Shown here one piece after another: positions 14,277 to 28,597 of a stretch of 37,568 nt of DNA (its first letter is position 1; each line of letters starts with the position of its first letter). The stretch spans positions 1 to 37,568 of the forward strand of contig JAJFKP010000060.1 of NCBI GenBank assembly GCA_021773135.1, read 5' to 3'. This stretch comes from Woeseiaceae bacterium (lineage in GTDB: Bacteria > Pseudomonadota > Gammaproteobacteria > Steroidobacterales > Woeseiaceae). A program made the translations under genes and the position numbers. The notes beneath the pieces were generated by a model. It saw only the letters and a program-made list of their open reading frames with translations. It was not told the origin of the DNA and did not search any database.

Positions 14277-16751
14277 ATGTCCAAGAATCTTGTCATCGTC
14301 GAATCACCTGCTAAGGCTACGACCATTAGCAAATACCTCGGCAAAGATTTTGACGTCCTCGCCTCCTATGGCCATGTTCGCGACCTTGTCCCCAAGGAGG
14401 GCGCGGTGGATCCCGAGCAGGGTTTCGCCATGAAGTACCAGATCATTGAGCGCAATGAGAAGCATGTTAAGGCGATTATCAAGGCGCTCAAGAAAGCCGA
14501 TGCCCTATATCTTGCGACTGACCCTGATCGGGAGGGCGAAGCAATTTCATGGCACCTGATCGAACTTCTGAAGGAGCGCAAGGCGCTCGGCGCGCGGGCC
14601 GTTCACCGCGTTGTGTTTCATGAAATCACCAAGGCTGCGGTCAACGATGCGATAGCAAACCCGCGCGAGGTTTCCACTGAACTGGTCAGCGCCCAGCAGG
14701 CGCGCAGAGCGCTTGACTATCTCGTTGGCTTTAATCTGTCTCCGCTGCTGTGGAAAAAGGTGCAGCGAGGTTTGTCAGCAGGACGCGTTCAAAGCCCGGC
14801 GTTACGGATGATCGTAGAGCGCGAACTGGAGATCGAGGCCTTCAAGGCCCGGGAATACTGGTCGATCGAAGCCGACGTCAGCAAGGATAAACAGCCGTTC
14901 TTTTCGCGACTTGTGCGCTACAAAGGCGAGAAAGTCGAGCAGTTCAGTTTCGAGAATGAAGACGCCGCTCGTGAGGTTGAAAAAACCATCACTGATGCGG
15001 CTGGTGGAAAACTGACGACCGTCAAAGTCGACAAGAAACAACGTCGACGCAATCCGGCTGCGCCATTCACTACGTCCACCTTGCAGCAGGAGGCCTCGCG
15101 CAAGCTTGGCTTCAATACGCAGTGGACCATGCGGGTTGCGCAGAAGCTTTATGAGGGCATCGAGTTGCCTGACGTCGGTAACGTCGGCCTGATCACCTAT
15201 ATGCGTACCGATTCCGTGACCCTGGCGAGCGTCGCTGTCGACGAGATTCGCGAGACAATCAAGGAACGCTACGGGGCTGACAATGTTCCCGACGAACCGC
15301 GCACCTTCAAAACGCGGTCGAAAAATGCGCAGGAAGCACATGAAGCCATCAGGCCTACATCGGTCGCTTACACACCAGAGTCGTTGAAAGGCAAGCTCGA
15401 CGAAGAACAGCTTAAGCTCTATACGCTGATCTGGCGGCGCACCATGGCCTGCCAGATGGTGCCTGCTGTTTTCGATACCGTTGCACTGGAATTCTCACCC
15501 GGCGCTGCGGACACCGCGTCTGCCAGTGATCAGCATCGTTTCCGCGCCAACGGCTCCGTTCTCGTGGAGCCCGGCTTCATGGCTGTTTATCACGAAGGTA
15601 AAGACGATGCCAAAGATGACGATGGCGATCGTTTGCTGCCCGAGGTAGCAGAAGGGGACGTCATCAATCTCGATGTCCTGCGCCCTGAACAGCATTTCAC
15701 GGAACCACCGCCGCGTTTCACCGAAGCAAGCCTGGTGAAGACACTGGAAGAGTACGGCATCGGCAGACCGTCTACCTACGCCAATATCATCGCTACGCTG
15801 AAGAACCGCGAGTATGTCGAGATGGATGCCAAGCGCTTCCTGCCGACCGACATCGGCCGAATCGTCATTGGTTTCCTGACCGAGCATTTCACCCAGTACG
15901 TTGACTACGACTTCACGGCGCGACTTGAAGATGACCTTGACGCCATTTCCCTTGGCGAGAAGGATCTTGTGCCATTGCTTGAGGGATTCTGGAAACCTTT
16001 CCACGAGCTCGTCGAGGACAAGGACCAGAGCGTCACCCGCGAACAGGTCGCGCAGGCCCGTGAACTGGGGACTGACCCGAAAAGCGGCAAGCCGGTGACC
16101 GTCCGTATGGGGCGGTACGGGCCTTTTGTGCAAATCGGCACCAAGGACGACGAGGAAAAGCCGAAGTTTGCAGGCCTGCGGCCAGGCCAGAAGATGAACG
16201 ACATCGATCTCGCCACCGCCATGGAGCTGTTCAAATTGCCGCGCAAACTGGGGCAAACGGCGGATGGCCTGGAAGTTTCGGCCAGCATTGGGCGATTTGG
16301 TCCCTACGTTCGTTACGGCGACAAGTATGTCTCCATACGTGATGAGGACCCTTACACAATTGAGTTGCCGCGGGCACTGGAACTGATTGAAGAAAAGAAA
16401 ATAGCGGACGCCAACCGCATCATTCAGGACTTTGAAGCCGAAGGCATCCAGGTGCTGAACGGGCGTTACGGACCGTATGTCACGAACAAGGAAAAGAATG
16501 CCCGTGTGCCGAAGGATCGGGAGCCGAAATCATTGACGCTCGAAGAATGCAAAGAGCTGCTTGCCAACGCACCGGTGCGCGACAAACGAGGCAAAAAGAA
16601 AGCGGCGAAAAAGAAAACGGAAAGCAAGACGGCTGCCAAGAAAAAGGTGACCAAGAAGAAGGCCAGGAAAAAAGCCAAAAAGAAAGCAAAGAAGAAAATG
16701 GCAAAAAAGAAGGCTGCCAAGAAGAAGCCTGCCGGCCCCGGCGAGTCCTGA
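14277..16751 (+). CDS. topA: DNA topoisomerase I with lysine-rich C-terminal tail
   Basis: A type IA topoisomerase (824 residues) that relaxes negative supercoils. The Toprim domain opens with NLVIVESPAKA and has DPDREGEA (82-89); SAGRVQSPALR (168-178) and the active-site Tyr308 (GLITYMRTDS) are intact. The C-terminal part does not have the Cys4 zinc ribbons of E. coli TopA. Instead it carries three short repeats of the MGRYGPFVQIG type (about residues 611, 671 and 729), followed by a tail of about 45 residues made almost wholly of Lys and Ala (about 771-815). Such basic tails are known from actinobacterial and some proteobacterial enzymes, where they bind DNA and aid processivity. tsaC starts 19 bases downstream in the same operon. 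Confidence 0.97.
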   Translation: MSKNLVIVESPAKATTISKYLGKDFDVLASYGHVRDLVPKEGAVDPEQGFAMKYQIIERNEKHVKAIIKALKKADALYLATDPDREGEAISWHLIELLKERKALGARAVHRVVFHEITKAAVNDAIANPREVSTELVSAQQARRALDYLVGFNLSPLLWKKVQRGLSAGRVQSPALRMIVERELEIEAFKAREYWSIEADVSKDKQPFFSRLVRYKGEKVEQFSFENEDAAREVEKTITDAAGGKLTTVKVDKKQRRRNPAAPFTTSTLQQEASRKLGFNTQWTMRVAQKLYEGIELPDVGNVGLITYMRTDSVTLASVAVDEIRETIKERYGADNVPDEPRTFKTRSKNAQEAHEAIRPTSVAYTPESLKGKLDEEQLKLYTLIWRRTMACQMVPAVFDTVALEFSPGAADTASASDQHRFRANGSVLVEPGFMAVYHEGKDDAKDDDGDRLLPEVAEGDVINLDVLRPEQHFTEPPPRFTEASLVKTLEEYGIGRPSTYANIIATLKNREYVEMDAKRFLPTDIGRIVIGFLTEHFTQYVDYDFTARLEDDLDAISLGEKDLVPLLEGFWKPFHELVEDKDQSVTREQVAQARELGTDPKSGKPVTVRMGRYGPFVQIGTKDDEEKPKFAGLRPGQKMNDIDLATAMELFKLPRKLGQTADGLEVSASIGRFGPYVRYGDKYVSIRDEDPYTIELPRALELIEEKKIADANRIIQDFEAEGIQVLNGRYGPYVTNKEKNARVPKDREPKSLTLEECKELLANAPVRDKRGKKKAAKKKTESKTAAKKKVTKKKARKKAKKKAKKKMAKKKAAKKKPAGPGES

Positions 16752-25071: not shown

Positions 25072-25239
25072 TGCGGATTGATCGCGAACATCCCTGTTCG
25101 CGACCTTCGCTGAGCGAAGGCGCTGCCGCGTCCCGATTCGCTTCCTGCGAATCGGTGATCTTTAGTAAATCTCTCCGCTAGAACGTTGACCCTTTGCGGG
25201 CCGTGCCAATAGAATCATCATGCCAATAAAAAAGGGCCC
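25072..25239. repeat. Intergenic hairpin repeat, copy 1
   Basis: First copy of a 168-base element whose second copy starts exactly 252 bases later. Bases 25072-25167 are identical in both copies (96 of 96); the next 26 or so bases have diverged; a final segment of about 46 bases (TTGCGGGCCGTGCC to AAAAAAGGGCCC) is again nearly identical. The core holds three tandem hairpins: CGCGAAC / GTTCGCG (25083-25102), CCTTCGC / GCGAAGG (25104-25120) and CCGATTCGC / GCGAATCGG (25133-25155). All arms share a TTCGC/GCGAA theme. The hairpin module is bounded by two TGATC pentamers (25079-25083 and 25156-25160). Confidence 0.9.
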
Positions 25240-25323: not shown

Positions 25324-25491
25324 TGCGGATTGATCGCGAACATCCCTGTTCGCGACCTTCGCTGAGCGAAGGCGCTGCCGCGTCCCGATTCGCTTCCTGC
25401 GAATCGGTGATCTTTAGTACACCACTCCGCCAGGGCAGCGAACCATTGCGGGCCGTGCCAATAGAATCATAATGCCAATAAAAAAGGGCCC
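25324..25491. repeat. Intergenic hairpin repeat, copy 2
   Basis: Second copy of the 168-base element, offset by 252 from the first. The identical core is 25324-25419; hairpins are at 25335-25354, 25356-25372 and 25385-25407. Its end supplies the A-run and the first arm of the terminator of the Cys-repeat gene (25480-25507). No ORF or transposase is associated with it. Confidence 0.9.
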
Positions 25492-25507
25492 GCATTTCTG
25501 CGGGCCC
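25480..25507 (-). terminator. Rho-independent terminator of the Cys-repeat (HvfA-like) gene
   Basis: A perfect 9-bp stem GGGCCCGCA / TGCGGGCCC (25486-25494 and 25499-25507) with a 4-base loop. On the minus strand it is followed by six U residues (the A-run at 25480-25485). It lies 28 bases beyond the stop codon of the Cys-repeat gene. Copy 1 of the intergenic repeat has the same left arm but lacks the matching right arm. Confidence 0.92.
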
Positions 25508-25535
25508 CTCTTATTTCTAAGCAATTGCCAGGCAG

Positions 25536-26126
25536 TTACTCTTTGTCACCACCACATTTGCCTTCGCCGCACTTGCCTTCTGCTTCTTCCTTGTCACCGC
25601 CACAGGAACCTTCTGCTTCCTTGTCACCGCCACAAGAGCCTTCTGCTTCCTTGTCACCGCCACAGGAACCTTCTGCTTCCTTGTCACCGCCACAAGAGCC
25701 TTCTGCTTCCTTGTCACCGCCACAGGAACCTTCAGCTTCCTTGTCACCGCCACAGGAACCTTCTGCTTCCTTGTCACCGCCACAGGAGCCTTCAGCTTCC
25801 TTGTCGCCGCCACAGGAACCTTCTGCTTCCTTGTCACCGCCACAGGAACCTTCAGCTTCCTTGTCACCGCCACAAGAGCCTTCAGCTTCCTTGTCACCAC
25901 CACAAGAACCTTCTGCATCTGAGGCTTCTTTGTCGCCGCCACATTTGCCTTCGCCACAGCTACCCTCAGCTTCCTGAGCGCCAAGCAGGTAACCTGCACC
26001 AAGCGTGGTTACTGAGAACGGGCTTACGCCTGTGTCAGCATTAGCGGTCGCTGAAAACGCGAACGCACCAGCGACTGCGGCACTAACTGCTACTGCTACG
26101 GGTTTCAATACTTGCTTTTCAGACAT
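25536..26126 (-). CDS. HvfA-like secreted Cys-repeat RiPP metallophore precursor, 15 EGxCG motifs
   Basis: A 196-residue exported peptide precursor. Residues 1-30 are a signal peptide (basic start, Ala/Val-rich core, cleavage after ATANA). Then comes a short leader [19 protein letters not shown], which resembles the NPFxxxxLxxGY leader of HvfA proteins. The rest is [10 protein letters not shown], a spacer, eleven units of [10 protein letters not shown], and [14 protein letters not shown]: 15 cysteines, each within EG[S/K]CG. In Haemophilus HvfA the EGKCG cysteines are converted by the DUF692 enzyme HvfB with HvfC to oxazolone/thioamide pairs that bind copper. Here most motifs have Ser before Cys, and no hvfB/hvfC lies in the window. 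The ATG has a GGAG ribosome site. It lies downstream of an ECF sigma/anti-sigma pair. Family match rests on motif and leader; modification is inference. Alternative: an unmodified metal-binding thiol buffer. Confidence 0.8.
25591..25920 (-). repeat. Eleven 30-bp tandem repeats encoding EGSCGGDKE[A/E]
   Basis: Eleven contiguous 30-base units inside the Cys-repeat gene. Base differences between units are confined to a handful of positions (third bases of Ala, Gly, Ser and Gly codons) and are synonymous within the EGSCGGDKE core; only residues at the array edge change. The first four units alternate between two variants (GGTTCC and GGCTCT for Gly-Ser), implying an older 60-base dimer duplication. 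Copy number is likely to vary between strains. Confidence 0.95.
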
Positions 26127-26150
26127 TTCAATCTCCTACCTTCGATTTCA

Positions 26151-26193
26151 AATGCCCAAGCGGGCATTGATAAATTGCCCTTATATGCGGGCA
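26151..26193 (-). promoter_or_regulatory. Paired inverted repeats in the leader of the Cys-repeat gene
   Basis: In the 85-base gap between the anti-sigma stop and the Cys-repeat ATG, AATGCCC / GGGCATT (26151-26168, 7-bp stem, 4-base loop) and TGCCC / GGGCA (26176-26193) are found. The octamer GCGGGCAT occurs twice, 27 bases apart. These could be an operator for a metal or redox regulator, or leader hairpins that set the ratio of precursor to anti-sigma transcript. No strong sigma-70 promoter is seen; TATAAG is a possible weak -10. Confidence 0.4.
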
Positions 26194-26211
26194 TGTATAT
26201 TCAGTGTATGG

Positions 26212-26958
26212 CTAAATGCTCCACTCCACTGAGTTTATAATTCTTTGTTCTAACTCGGTCAGTGGTTCGTCGCGTTCGCCGATGATCGCGATACTGCCAT
26301 TCCCCACTGGCAGGATGACGCCGTTCACCCCTTTTCCGTCAAGCGTCATCGCACCTTCAATCATCTCCTCCGGCATCAGTAGCAGCGTAATGGGGCCTTT
26401 CTCACCCTGGATAACCAGGTGCGGAATGGTCCTGCCGTTGATGACACAACTCTGTGCGTAAGTTACGAGACCCACACTGCGGTCCATAGTTCCGATTGAC
26501 GGGTTAACCACATTCGAGAACCGCTCATCCGAGACAGCAACGTTCGTCACTTGTAGCGCGTTTGGCTCATGATCGAGGTGCGCTAAAACCTGGTCCGCCA
26601 AAGGCAGGCTGTTCAGCTGGCTTGAACTGATCATCCGAACGCCAACGAATGCCGCCAAAACGACCGTCGCCGCAATGCCTATCCAGGTCGGTGCCGAAAA
26701 CCGCCTCTTGCCGCCAAACGGCAGGTCGACCACGTTATCGTCCTTGAGCTCTGGTAACTCAGGCACGCTAAGATCGGGCACGCTGATCGCCAGCGCTGCA
26801 GCGATCCTGTCGTTGAATGCCTGCATCTCCTGTGTGAATGCCGCACAGGATGCACAGGCAGCAACGTGCTCCGCGCCACCCTCAACCGCAGTTGTCGGAT
26901 CCGCTGCCAATAATTCTTTGTAATTGTCACAGTTCATAAATTTATCAGAGGTCGTCAT
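26212..26958 (-). CDS. Zinc-finger anti-sigma factor, DUF3379-like
   Basis: A 248-residue single-pass membrane protein. The cytoplasmic N-terminus carries a ZAS-type zinc-binding motif, His31-x3-Cys35-x2-Cys38 (HVAACASC), with Cys10 as a likely fourth ligand. A transmembrane helix is at about residues 89-110 (TWIGIAATVVLAAFVGV), and a periplasmic domain of about 135 residues follows, containing a single Cys (YAQSCVING) and a LVIQGEKGPITLLLMPEE segment typical of the DUF3379 family. It overlaps the preceding ECF sigma gene by ATGA, the usual sigma/anti-sigma arrangement, and precedes the Cys-repeat gene by 85 bases. It presumably holds the sigma factor at the membrane until a periplasmic or redox signal, perhaps metal stress, releases it. 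Confidence 0.88.
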   Translation of the reverse strand: MTTSDKFMNCDNYKELLAADPTTAVEGGAEHVAACASCAAFTQEMQAFNDRIAAALAISVPDLSVPELPELKDDNVVDLPFGGKRRFSAPTWIGIAATVVLAAFVGVRMISSSQLNSLPLADQVLAHLDHEPNALQVTNVAVSDERFSNVVNPSIGTMDRSVGLVTYAQSCVINGRTIPHLVIQGEKGPITLLLMPEEMIEGAMTLDGKGVNGVILPVGNGSIAIIGERDEPLTELEQRIINSVEWSI

Positions 26959-27470
26959 GTCGCAGCCTCCTTTTCCACTTCATCCTTAAGTTTGATGCGC
27001 GCCCGGTGCAATCTTGTTAATACCGCACCCTGTTGCATGCCCATCAGTTCCGCTATCTCTTTGGTGCTGTGGCCCATCAGGACCTGCAGCACCAATGGCT
27101 CACGATAATCGTCCTCGAGCCTGAAAATCGCCTGTCGCAGCTCTTCGAGTTGCGAGTCATCCGTCTCAGCCAGCATTGCCGACTGCGCCGGACTCAGGTT
27201 GTCTATGTCGACTGTCTCCAGCCTCTTCCTTTCGAAATACCTTGCGTTCTCTCTGCGAACGATCGTTAGCAACCATGGCTTCGCCGCTGTATCTTCTCTA
27301 AGCGCGTCCAGCGATTTCCAGGCCCGTAGAAGCGCCTCCTGGACAACTTCCTCTGCAATGCCCGGATCGCGGCATAACCACGCTGCGTACCGGTACATAT
27401 CGGTGTGAAATACCGTTACTACCCGGTCAAAACGCCTGTGGCGCTCACGACTGACATCATTGCTATTCAT
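26955..27470 (-). CDS. ECF-type sigma-70 family RNA polymerase sigma factor
   Basis: A 171-residue extracytoplasmic-function sigma factor with only regions 2 and 4. Region 2 (about residues 18-85) has FHTDMYRYAAWLCRDPGIAEEVVQEALLRAW-type helices and KPWLLTIVRRENARYF; region 4 (about 110-165) has YREPLVLQVLMGHSTKEIAELM and GAVLTRLHRARIKLK, the promoter -35 recognition helix. It overlaps the anti-sigma gene (ATGA) and is divergent from hemB. Sigma factors of this class usually control their own operon, so the Cys-repeat gene is a likely target; the promoter motif could not be identified by eye. Confidence 0.93.
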   Translation of the reverse strand: MNSNDVSRERHRRFDRVVTVFHTDMYRYAAWLCRDPGIAEEVVQEALLRAWKSLDALREDTAAKPWLLTIVRRENARYFERKRLETVDIDNLSPAQSAMLAETDDSQLEELRQAIFRLEDDYREPLVLQVLMGHSTKEIAELMGMQQGAVLTRLHRARIKLKDEVEKEAAT

Positions 27471-27537
27471 ACGAGGTGACCCGCTTCCCTGACAATTTAT
27501 TACTCTTCGCGTGCTTTTTTGTGATTCAGGCGTGGAA

Positions 27538-27557
27538 TCCCTGCCGAAATACAGGGA
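27538..27557. promoter_or_regulatory. Inverted repeat in the ECF sigma/hemB divergent gap
   Basis: TCCCTG (27538-27543) and CAGGGA (27552-27557) form a 6-bp inverted repeat with an 8-base centre in the 119-base gap between the two start codons. It may be an operator shared by the sigma operon and hemB. No further evidence. Confidence 0.3.
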
Positions 27558-27580
27558 AAATCCAGAACGTACTTATGTAA

Positions 27581-28597
<1,017 letters not shown>

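Follow-up and report, generated by a model that had tools for sequence, protein, structure and literature searches.

Introduction

The described peptides that most resemble the product of the locus reported here carry a repeated five-residue Cys motif, as is the case for HvfA of Haemophilus influenzae and for fontiphorin (statements on published systems refer, here and below, to the available portions of the papers cited). The modification of the HvfA cysteines was first reported as an oxazolone/thioamide pair and is now assigned to a 5-thiooxazole by two groups, in such a way that the structure adopted in an earlier note on this DNA is outdated, while the change of -4 Da per Cys that it expected is the same for both (PMC12668002, PMC13419390). 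MNIO-DUF2063 clusters are found in around half of the Pseudomonadota reference genomes (PMC12668002). The fontiphorin enzymes FonBC modified a substrate with two motifs and not one with a single motif, and took Ala, Arg and Thr in place of the motif's Lys, Ser not being among the tested variants named in the portion available; Arg15, Arg16 and Phe250 of FonB were tied to EGKCG substrates (PMC12668002). Many precursors are unlinked to MNIO genes, and the Buf_EGKCG/oxazolin survey already reported stand-alone genes, with precursors of 31–506 residues and up to 58 Cys (PMC12452194).

With respect to regulation, the closest case is the sigF/nrsF pair of Caulobacter, where a shared element precedes sigF-nrsF and two DUF2282-DUF692-DUF2063 operons, and where sigF was not strongly autoregulated under metal stress (PMC3511200).

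Here we analyze a gene from a Woeseiaceae bacterium (assembly GCA_021773135.1), located in a stretch of 37,568 nucleotides of contig JAJFKP010000060.1 that is called the window throughout. The earlier note had described the gene as encoding a HvfA-like precursor with an expanded repeat; beyond this, we found that no maturase is encoded at the precursor locus, that a full HvfBCX set is present elsewhere in the genome, and that an ECF sigma/DUF3379 pair lies upstream. The gene most likely encodes the precursor of a secreted copper-binding peptide with fifteen repeated Cys sites, beside its own stress switch, and this precursor is probably finished chemically by enzymes encoded elsewhere in the genome.

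Results

The precursor and its repeats

The features of the locus are collected in Table 1. A recount of the open reading frame, which starts with ATG, confirmed both the position that the earlier note gave for the precursor and its count of motifs, with all 15 cysteines within EG[S/K]CG, 12 of them as EGSCG and 3 as EGKCG (site number as assembled). Eleven units follow one another at a spacing of 10 residues as claimed, but only ten of them are perfect, the eleventh ending in EE. Tandem Repeats Finder described the same repeat as 30 bp in 11.0 copies with 92% matches. The DNA of the ten perfect units differs only at synonymous third positions, with 5 of the 10 codons varying, and thus drift in the DNA has left the peptide repeat unchanged. 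Chance or an assembly artefact as such was ruled out as the origin of the repeat frame, since orthologues occupy the same position in many genomes. The number of sites is not unusual either, as 16 were found in one precursor of genome G040 and 15 in that of locus L278.

Table 1. Features of the precursor locus in the window, ordered by position.
Feature	Position	Strand	Basis or remark
Likely terminator of the precursor mRNA	25486..25507	(-)	Stem; minus-strand T run read by eye
HvfA-family (captophorin, EGKCG type) precursor, 196 aa, 15 Cys	25536..26126	(-)	NF050137, 34.7 bits (cut-off 19.5)
Eleven EGSCGGDKE[A/E] units, 10-residue spacing	25584..25913	(-)	Sequence and Tandem Repeats Finder
Conserved 14-residue leader after the signal	25983..26024	(-)	Alignment of 16 chosen family precursors
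Putative Sec-type signal peptide, residues ~1–30	26037..26126	(-)	Sequence; signal and boundary judged by eye
Hairpin ATGCCCGCTTGGGCAT, just 5' of the precursor ribosome-binding site	26152..26167	(-)	GCCC...GGGC stem, family alignment
DUF3379 protein, putative membrane anti-sigma factor	26212..26958	(-)	PF11859, 104.9 bits (cut-off 33.2)
ECF sigma factor	26955..27470	(-)	NF009170, 203.1 bits (cut-off 197); 4-base overlap with the DUF3379 gene
GTAATAA-N15-GGTC promoter-like element before sigma	27478..27503	(-)	Also before the hvfBCX operon, contig C53

The assignment to the HvfA family held in the model search, although with a restriction, as the NCBIfam repeat model of the family (NF050137) was passed and the strict HvfA equivalog (NF050188) was failed, with 22.5 bits against a cut-off of 95. 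A Pfam search up to E = 1 matched nothing in the precursor, hence no DUF2282 domain, and the identity as a bufferin (Buf1, DUF2282) was rejected. On these sequence matches, EGKCG-type captophorin precursor would be the safe label. The N-terminus looks like a signal peptide by eye, in agreement with the earlier note, and in the leader behind it P36, F37, L42, Y46 and L48 are invariant among the 16 aligned precursors. The AlphaFold2 model of the precursor (pLDDT 43) shows no confident structure. A search of a plasmid collection gave one partial match.

Around the gene, the stem GCCC...GGGC of the upstream hairpin was read by eye in 19 of 19 aligned family members, and the intergenic stretch that holds it in the window folds with z = -1.3 against shuffles. 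Downstream, the terminator scan reported the terminator stem of Table 1 solely on the plus strand, and gave 3 terminator-like sites against 2.0 in shuffles. An intergenic repeat of 168 nt lies between the precursor and the gene designated tag, in two direct copies (25072-25239 and 25324-25491) that are 93% identical and contain a 44-nt sub-repeat three times, the second copy overlapping the stem of the likely terminator. A separate A/G-rich tandem repeat of 27 bp, AAGAAAAAGGC-like, is located at 16611-16727.

A conserved block with an ECF sigma factor and a DUF3379 protein

The precursor belongs to a conserved block composed of hemB (divergent), the ECF sigma factor, DUF3379, the precursor and tag, which was found in its own family and, within the order, in seven further families (f3, f4, f5, f9, f11, f14 and f16), with hemB or tag sometimes outside the stretch. 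The repeat model matched 27 of 60 genomes, and 29 precursor stretches were taken from 26 of them; the sigma factor and/or DUF3379 stood beside the precursor in 23 of these 29 stretches, the others being L040, L056, L060, L062, L064 and L065. Looking downstream of DUF3379 revealed precursors that had escaped the repeat model in G001, G003, G007, G008, G013, G019, G023 and G044, and in all 8 of 8 additional genomes the order and orientation were the same. Among named genomes, 68 sigma loci were detected, of which 20 reached an identity of at least 72% (12 overlapping the genomes labelled G and 8 additional), several from Woeseia or Woeseiaceae genomes; the precursor was present in 18 of these 20, and the other two were cut by contig ends. 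As a side observation, one genome with the standard locus encodes a further precursor, L040 (G016:C233:1900-2565), which has another leader and doublets of EGSCG/EGACG, and whose stretch gave no match to sigma, DUF3379 or MNIO.

The two upstream genes have the layout of an anti-sigma pair, in which a sigma factor with regions 2 and 4 is followed by a gene whose product combines an N-terminal domain with a single long hydrophobic helix and an outer domain. The AlphaFold2 model of the DUF3379 protein (mean pLDDT 88) consists of an N-terminal helical part, a long helix at residues 91–117, which from sequence and model would be the membrane helix, and a beta-rich outer part. Near the N end there is an Hx3Cx2C motif, whose H, C and C are kept in 39, 38 and 38 of 44 aligned homologues, and in the outer part H127, H130, C171 and H180 are kept in 39, 24, 42 and 40 of them. 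A metal site in this protein would be a fair guess, not a result. A Foldseek search with the model found no solved fold at E <=0.001; the matches to RseB, at E 0.04 to 0.2 and probability 0.91-0.97, were too weak to use, and a copper-sensor fold was rejected.

DUF3379 was detected above its cut-off in 34 of 276 Gammaproteobacteria genomes. Up to 17 kb around it were taken for 32 of the 34 (all except our own genome and G021); nine of these regions hold an MNIO, one more a bufferin precursor and one more an EGKCG precursor, and the remaining 21 hold none of these. Around 0.2 MNIO would be expected at random in the 32 regions, under assumed values for genome size and MNIO number. At the level of whole genomes the co-occurrence across the class is only modest, with matches to the HvfB model at any score in 26 of 34 genomes with DUF3379 versus 139 of 242 without it (p 0.04), and matches over the cut-off in 19 of 34 versus 70 of 242 (p 0.003).

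Probable maturation enzymes on another contig

The genome (64 contigs, 99.67% complete) contains two MNIO genes among those found, neither of them on the precursor contig. On contig C53 an MNIO (HvfB), a DUF2063 partner (HvfC) and a DoxX protein (HvfX) form an operon in which all three exceed their equivalog cut-offs, with 411.6, 303.9 and 233.4 bits against 360, 142 and 80, respectively. No EGxCG precursor was found in the 18 kb around this hvfBCX operon, and model NF050137 had no second match in the genome beyond the precursor gene. The MNIO on contig C35 exceeds the cut-off for BufB but stays below that for HvfB, and its operon, of bufferin type, includes a DUF2282 precursor and a DUF2063 partner.

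At the places presumed to contact the substrate, the C53 enzyme has GLRR and ERDF and the C35 enzyme GLRG and EWDV, the equation of these columns with FonB residues resting on motif context, as the alignment does not contain FonB. In this alignment of 53 MNIOs, 50 from the 60 genomes and 3 from elsewhere in the class, Arg-Arg is present in 43 of 43 HvfB-type enzymes and in 0 of 10 others, and ERDF (Asp-Phe) in the 42 of 42 HvfB-type sequences that cover the site.

Among the 60 genomes, our own included, a precursor profile detected the precursor in 38, all of them with an HvfB-type MNIO, while 4 had the enzyme only (G004, G009 and G010, 72-82% complete, and G053, 96%) and 18 neither (Fisher 8e-12, a value uncorrected for kinship, which inflates it together with the incompleteness of MAGs and the small size of six g5 genomes). 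The most telling case for the assignment in trans is G018, where hemB, sigma, DUF3379 and tag are in place, and where there is no precursor at that site or elsewhere, no MNIO and no promoter-like element (see below) before sigma; G058, with sigma and DUF3379, likewise shows no MNIO, precursor or element. In G050 and G179, from other families, the precursor adjoins an HvfB-type MNIO, and the G179 precursor has EGSCG throughout.

The enzyme of contig C35, being the only other MNIO found in the genome and having a DUF2063 partner, might be thought to modify the precursor instead. This is highly improbable, as it adjoins a DUF2282 precursor of its own, passes the model of another type, has neither the Arg-Arg/Asp-Phe signature nor the element shared by sigma and hvfBCX, and 32 of the 38 precursor-bearing genomes are without an MNIO of another type among those found.

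A promoter-like element shared by both loci

The pattern GTAATA[A/T]-N14-16-GGTC was found near the start of 29 of 36 sigma genes and 32 of 43 HvfB-type MNIO genes (26 of 27 inside the family and 6 of 16 outside), and of 0 of 10 other MNIO genes. The spacer was 15 in all 62 occurrences, even though 14 to 16 were allowed, and the reversed pattern gave 0 matches in the same sigma and HvfB-type stretches. The sigma genes without the element were L047, L207, L147, L136, L143, L139 and L215; in the last of these the open reading frame starts too early, and the element is present at the start defined by homologues. In the 20 close loci from named genomes, the distance from the start of the element to the sigma match is 33 bases in every case.

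At the scale of genomes the pattern is less selective. The exact form GTAATAAN15GGTC gave 123 matches in the 60 genomes against 66 for the reversed control; in our own genome the loose pattern (spacer 14-16) gave 10 against 9, two of the ten being the sigma and hvfBCX operons, and the N15 pattern gave 5 against 2. The other three N15 matches precede a stand-alone DoxX gene, a 65-aa frame and a 374-aa frame; the first of them (L228, C52:45193, GTAATAA-N15-GGTC) concerns a family that accompanies captophorin operons, and it may be due to chance. Separate from the element and further upstream, the gap between hemB and sigma contains a second strongly conserved block at 27500-27560, TTTTCCCTGTATTT..GG....GTTTCCACG, which might belong to hemB.

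These data bear on whether the sigma/DUF3379 pair could be a neighbour with another purpose, the precursor being expressed on its own, for which one could invoke the 85 bp gap ahead of the precursor and the 21 of 32 class-wide DUF3379 regions that hold neither MNIO nor bufferin or EGxCG precursor. We consider this quite unlikely, given that gene order and orientation are kept in the three sets of loci described above, that the element is common to sigma and hvfBCX, and that the other 11 of the 32 regions do hold such genes, with MNIOs well above the number expected by chance; no sigma-70-like promoter was found in 25400-27620, although only 1.1 were expected. Co-regulation of the precursor with its presumed enzymes by the ECF/DUF3379 switch thus stands as the preferred reading.

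Ser and Lys sites

The earlier note had taken the Ser that replaces Lys before Cys in 12 motifs as the mark of a distinct variant. The count is right, but the interpretation had to be abandoned, since Ser before Cys is family-wide, with Ser at 227 and Lys at 53 of 303 Cys-Gly sites in 32 family precursors. In 15 other precursors from the order and class, Lys was found at 102 and Ser at 18 of 120 sites. The residue varies with spacing, in such a way that sites with a neighbour 5 residues away comprise 148 Lys and 92 Ser, versus 7 Lys and 153 Ser for single sites (47 precursors, other residues left out); no p value is offered for this difference, because repeats arise as copies of one another and the precursors share ancestry. 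Most EGSCG motifs of our precursor are single.

This bias, together with the preference of FonBC for the two-motif substrate (PMC12668002), would fit a product in which only a few EGKCG-containing doublets near both ends are converted and the single EGSCG sites remain free thiols, that is, a disordered metallothionein-like chain with few thiooxazoles. Such an outcome appears unlikely, since the all-EGSCG precursor of G179 adjoins an HvfB-type enzyme, several g11 precursors are nearly all EGSCG, in doublets and singles, FonBC tolerated other residues at the Lys position (PMC12668002), and the repeats are not independent observations. In the reading that we favour, conversion would extend to the EGSCG sites.

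Discussion

The locus most likely encodes an EGKCG-type captophorin precursor that is modified in trans and co-regulated by an ECF/DUF3379 switch. In the model that we propose, the precursor would be the third gene of an ECF sigma/DUF3379/precursor operon. The outer part of DUF3379 would meet a signal, in such a way that sigma is freed; the signal might most likely be excess copper or another thiophilic metal, a guess that derives from the conserved His and Cys of DUF3379. The freed sigma factor would then transcribe its own operon and, in trans, hvfBCX on C53, both from GTAATA[A/T]-N15-GGTC, and HvfB/HvfC would modify the precursor cysteines before export through Sec. The product, an exported RiPP binding copper via Cys converted to 5-thiooxazoles, would be a chain in the periplasm that is disordered for the most part and offers as many as 15 sites for soft metals. 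Taken as a whole, from the operon and the trans-acting hvfBCX to the shared promoter and the thiooxazole copper peptide, we regard this model as likely.

A further-reaching proposal, to which we would give about even chances, is that DUF3379 acts as a periplasmic metal- or thiol-sensing anti-sigma factor, the counterpart of NrsF, and forms with the ECF sigma factor a dedicated regulon that ties the precursor locus to the unlinked hvfBCX through GTAATA[A/T]-N15-GGTC, and that the precursor of this lineage has two kinds of sites, Lys-rich doublets and single Ser motifs, which possibly differ in processing or in metal affinity.

The locus makes the switch of a stand-alone precursor and the enzyme that serves it directly testable, as it brings together a defined element, a defined enzyme set and DUF3379, a protein family without assigned function. 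The precursor is also a natural substrate of single EGSCG motifs, and bears on the need of one studied enzyme for two neighbouring motifs; the single Ser motifs pose a chemical question because FonBC modified the double and not the single substrate and accepted Ala, Arg and Thr (PMC12668002). In the literature searched, whose reach excluded most subscription papers, we found no mention of EGSCG or of DUF3379, and nothing on Woeseia together with HvfA.

Compared with known systems, the locus shares with Haemophilus influenzae HvfA/oxazolin (PMC13419390) EG[x]CG repeats, HvfB/HvfC/HvfX equivalogs in the genome and, as judged by eye, a signal peptide, but its sites number 15, against 6 in HvfA, and are for the most part EGSCG at a spacing of 10, it falls below the HvfA equivalog cut-off, and its precursor stands behind an ECF sigma/DUF3379 pair with hvfBCX on another contig, whereas hvfA lies beside hvfBCX. 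With fontiphorin and the EGKCG captophorins (PMC12668002), and with MmrA of Microbulbifer (PMC12538549), it has in common the repeated motif, the MNIO contact signature and the DUF2063 partner; fontiphorin is encoded in a compact fonABC cluster with seven EGKCG sites, and MmrA has five to eight Cys. The repeats in the survey have 17 residues with two motifs and a predicted beta-helix (PMC12452194), in contrast to 10 residues, one motif and the low-confidence model obtained here, and the anti-sigma factor named in the available portion of that survey is NrsF, for Buf1, and not DUF3379.

The resemblance to Caulobacter sigF/nrsF lies in an ECF sigma factor paired with a membrane negative regulator that has conserved outer Cys, and in the shared element. 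However, NrsF (DUF1109 in that paper) belongs to another family, the element is GTAACC-N16-CGAA, the inducers are chromium and cadmium, and the precursors are bufferin-type and beside their MNIO, whereas here the precursor is EGKCG-type and the MNIO unlinked (PMC3511200). Repeat expansion and stand-alone precursors (PMC12452194) are thus already known, as are the sigma-driven MNIO operons of Caulobacter; what the present comparison of sequences adds is a coherent split system together with a new candidate switch, DUF3379.
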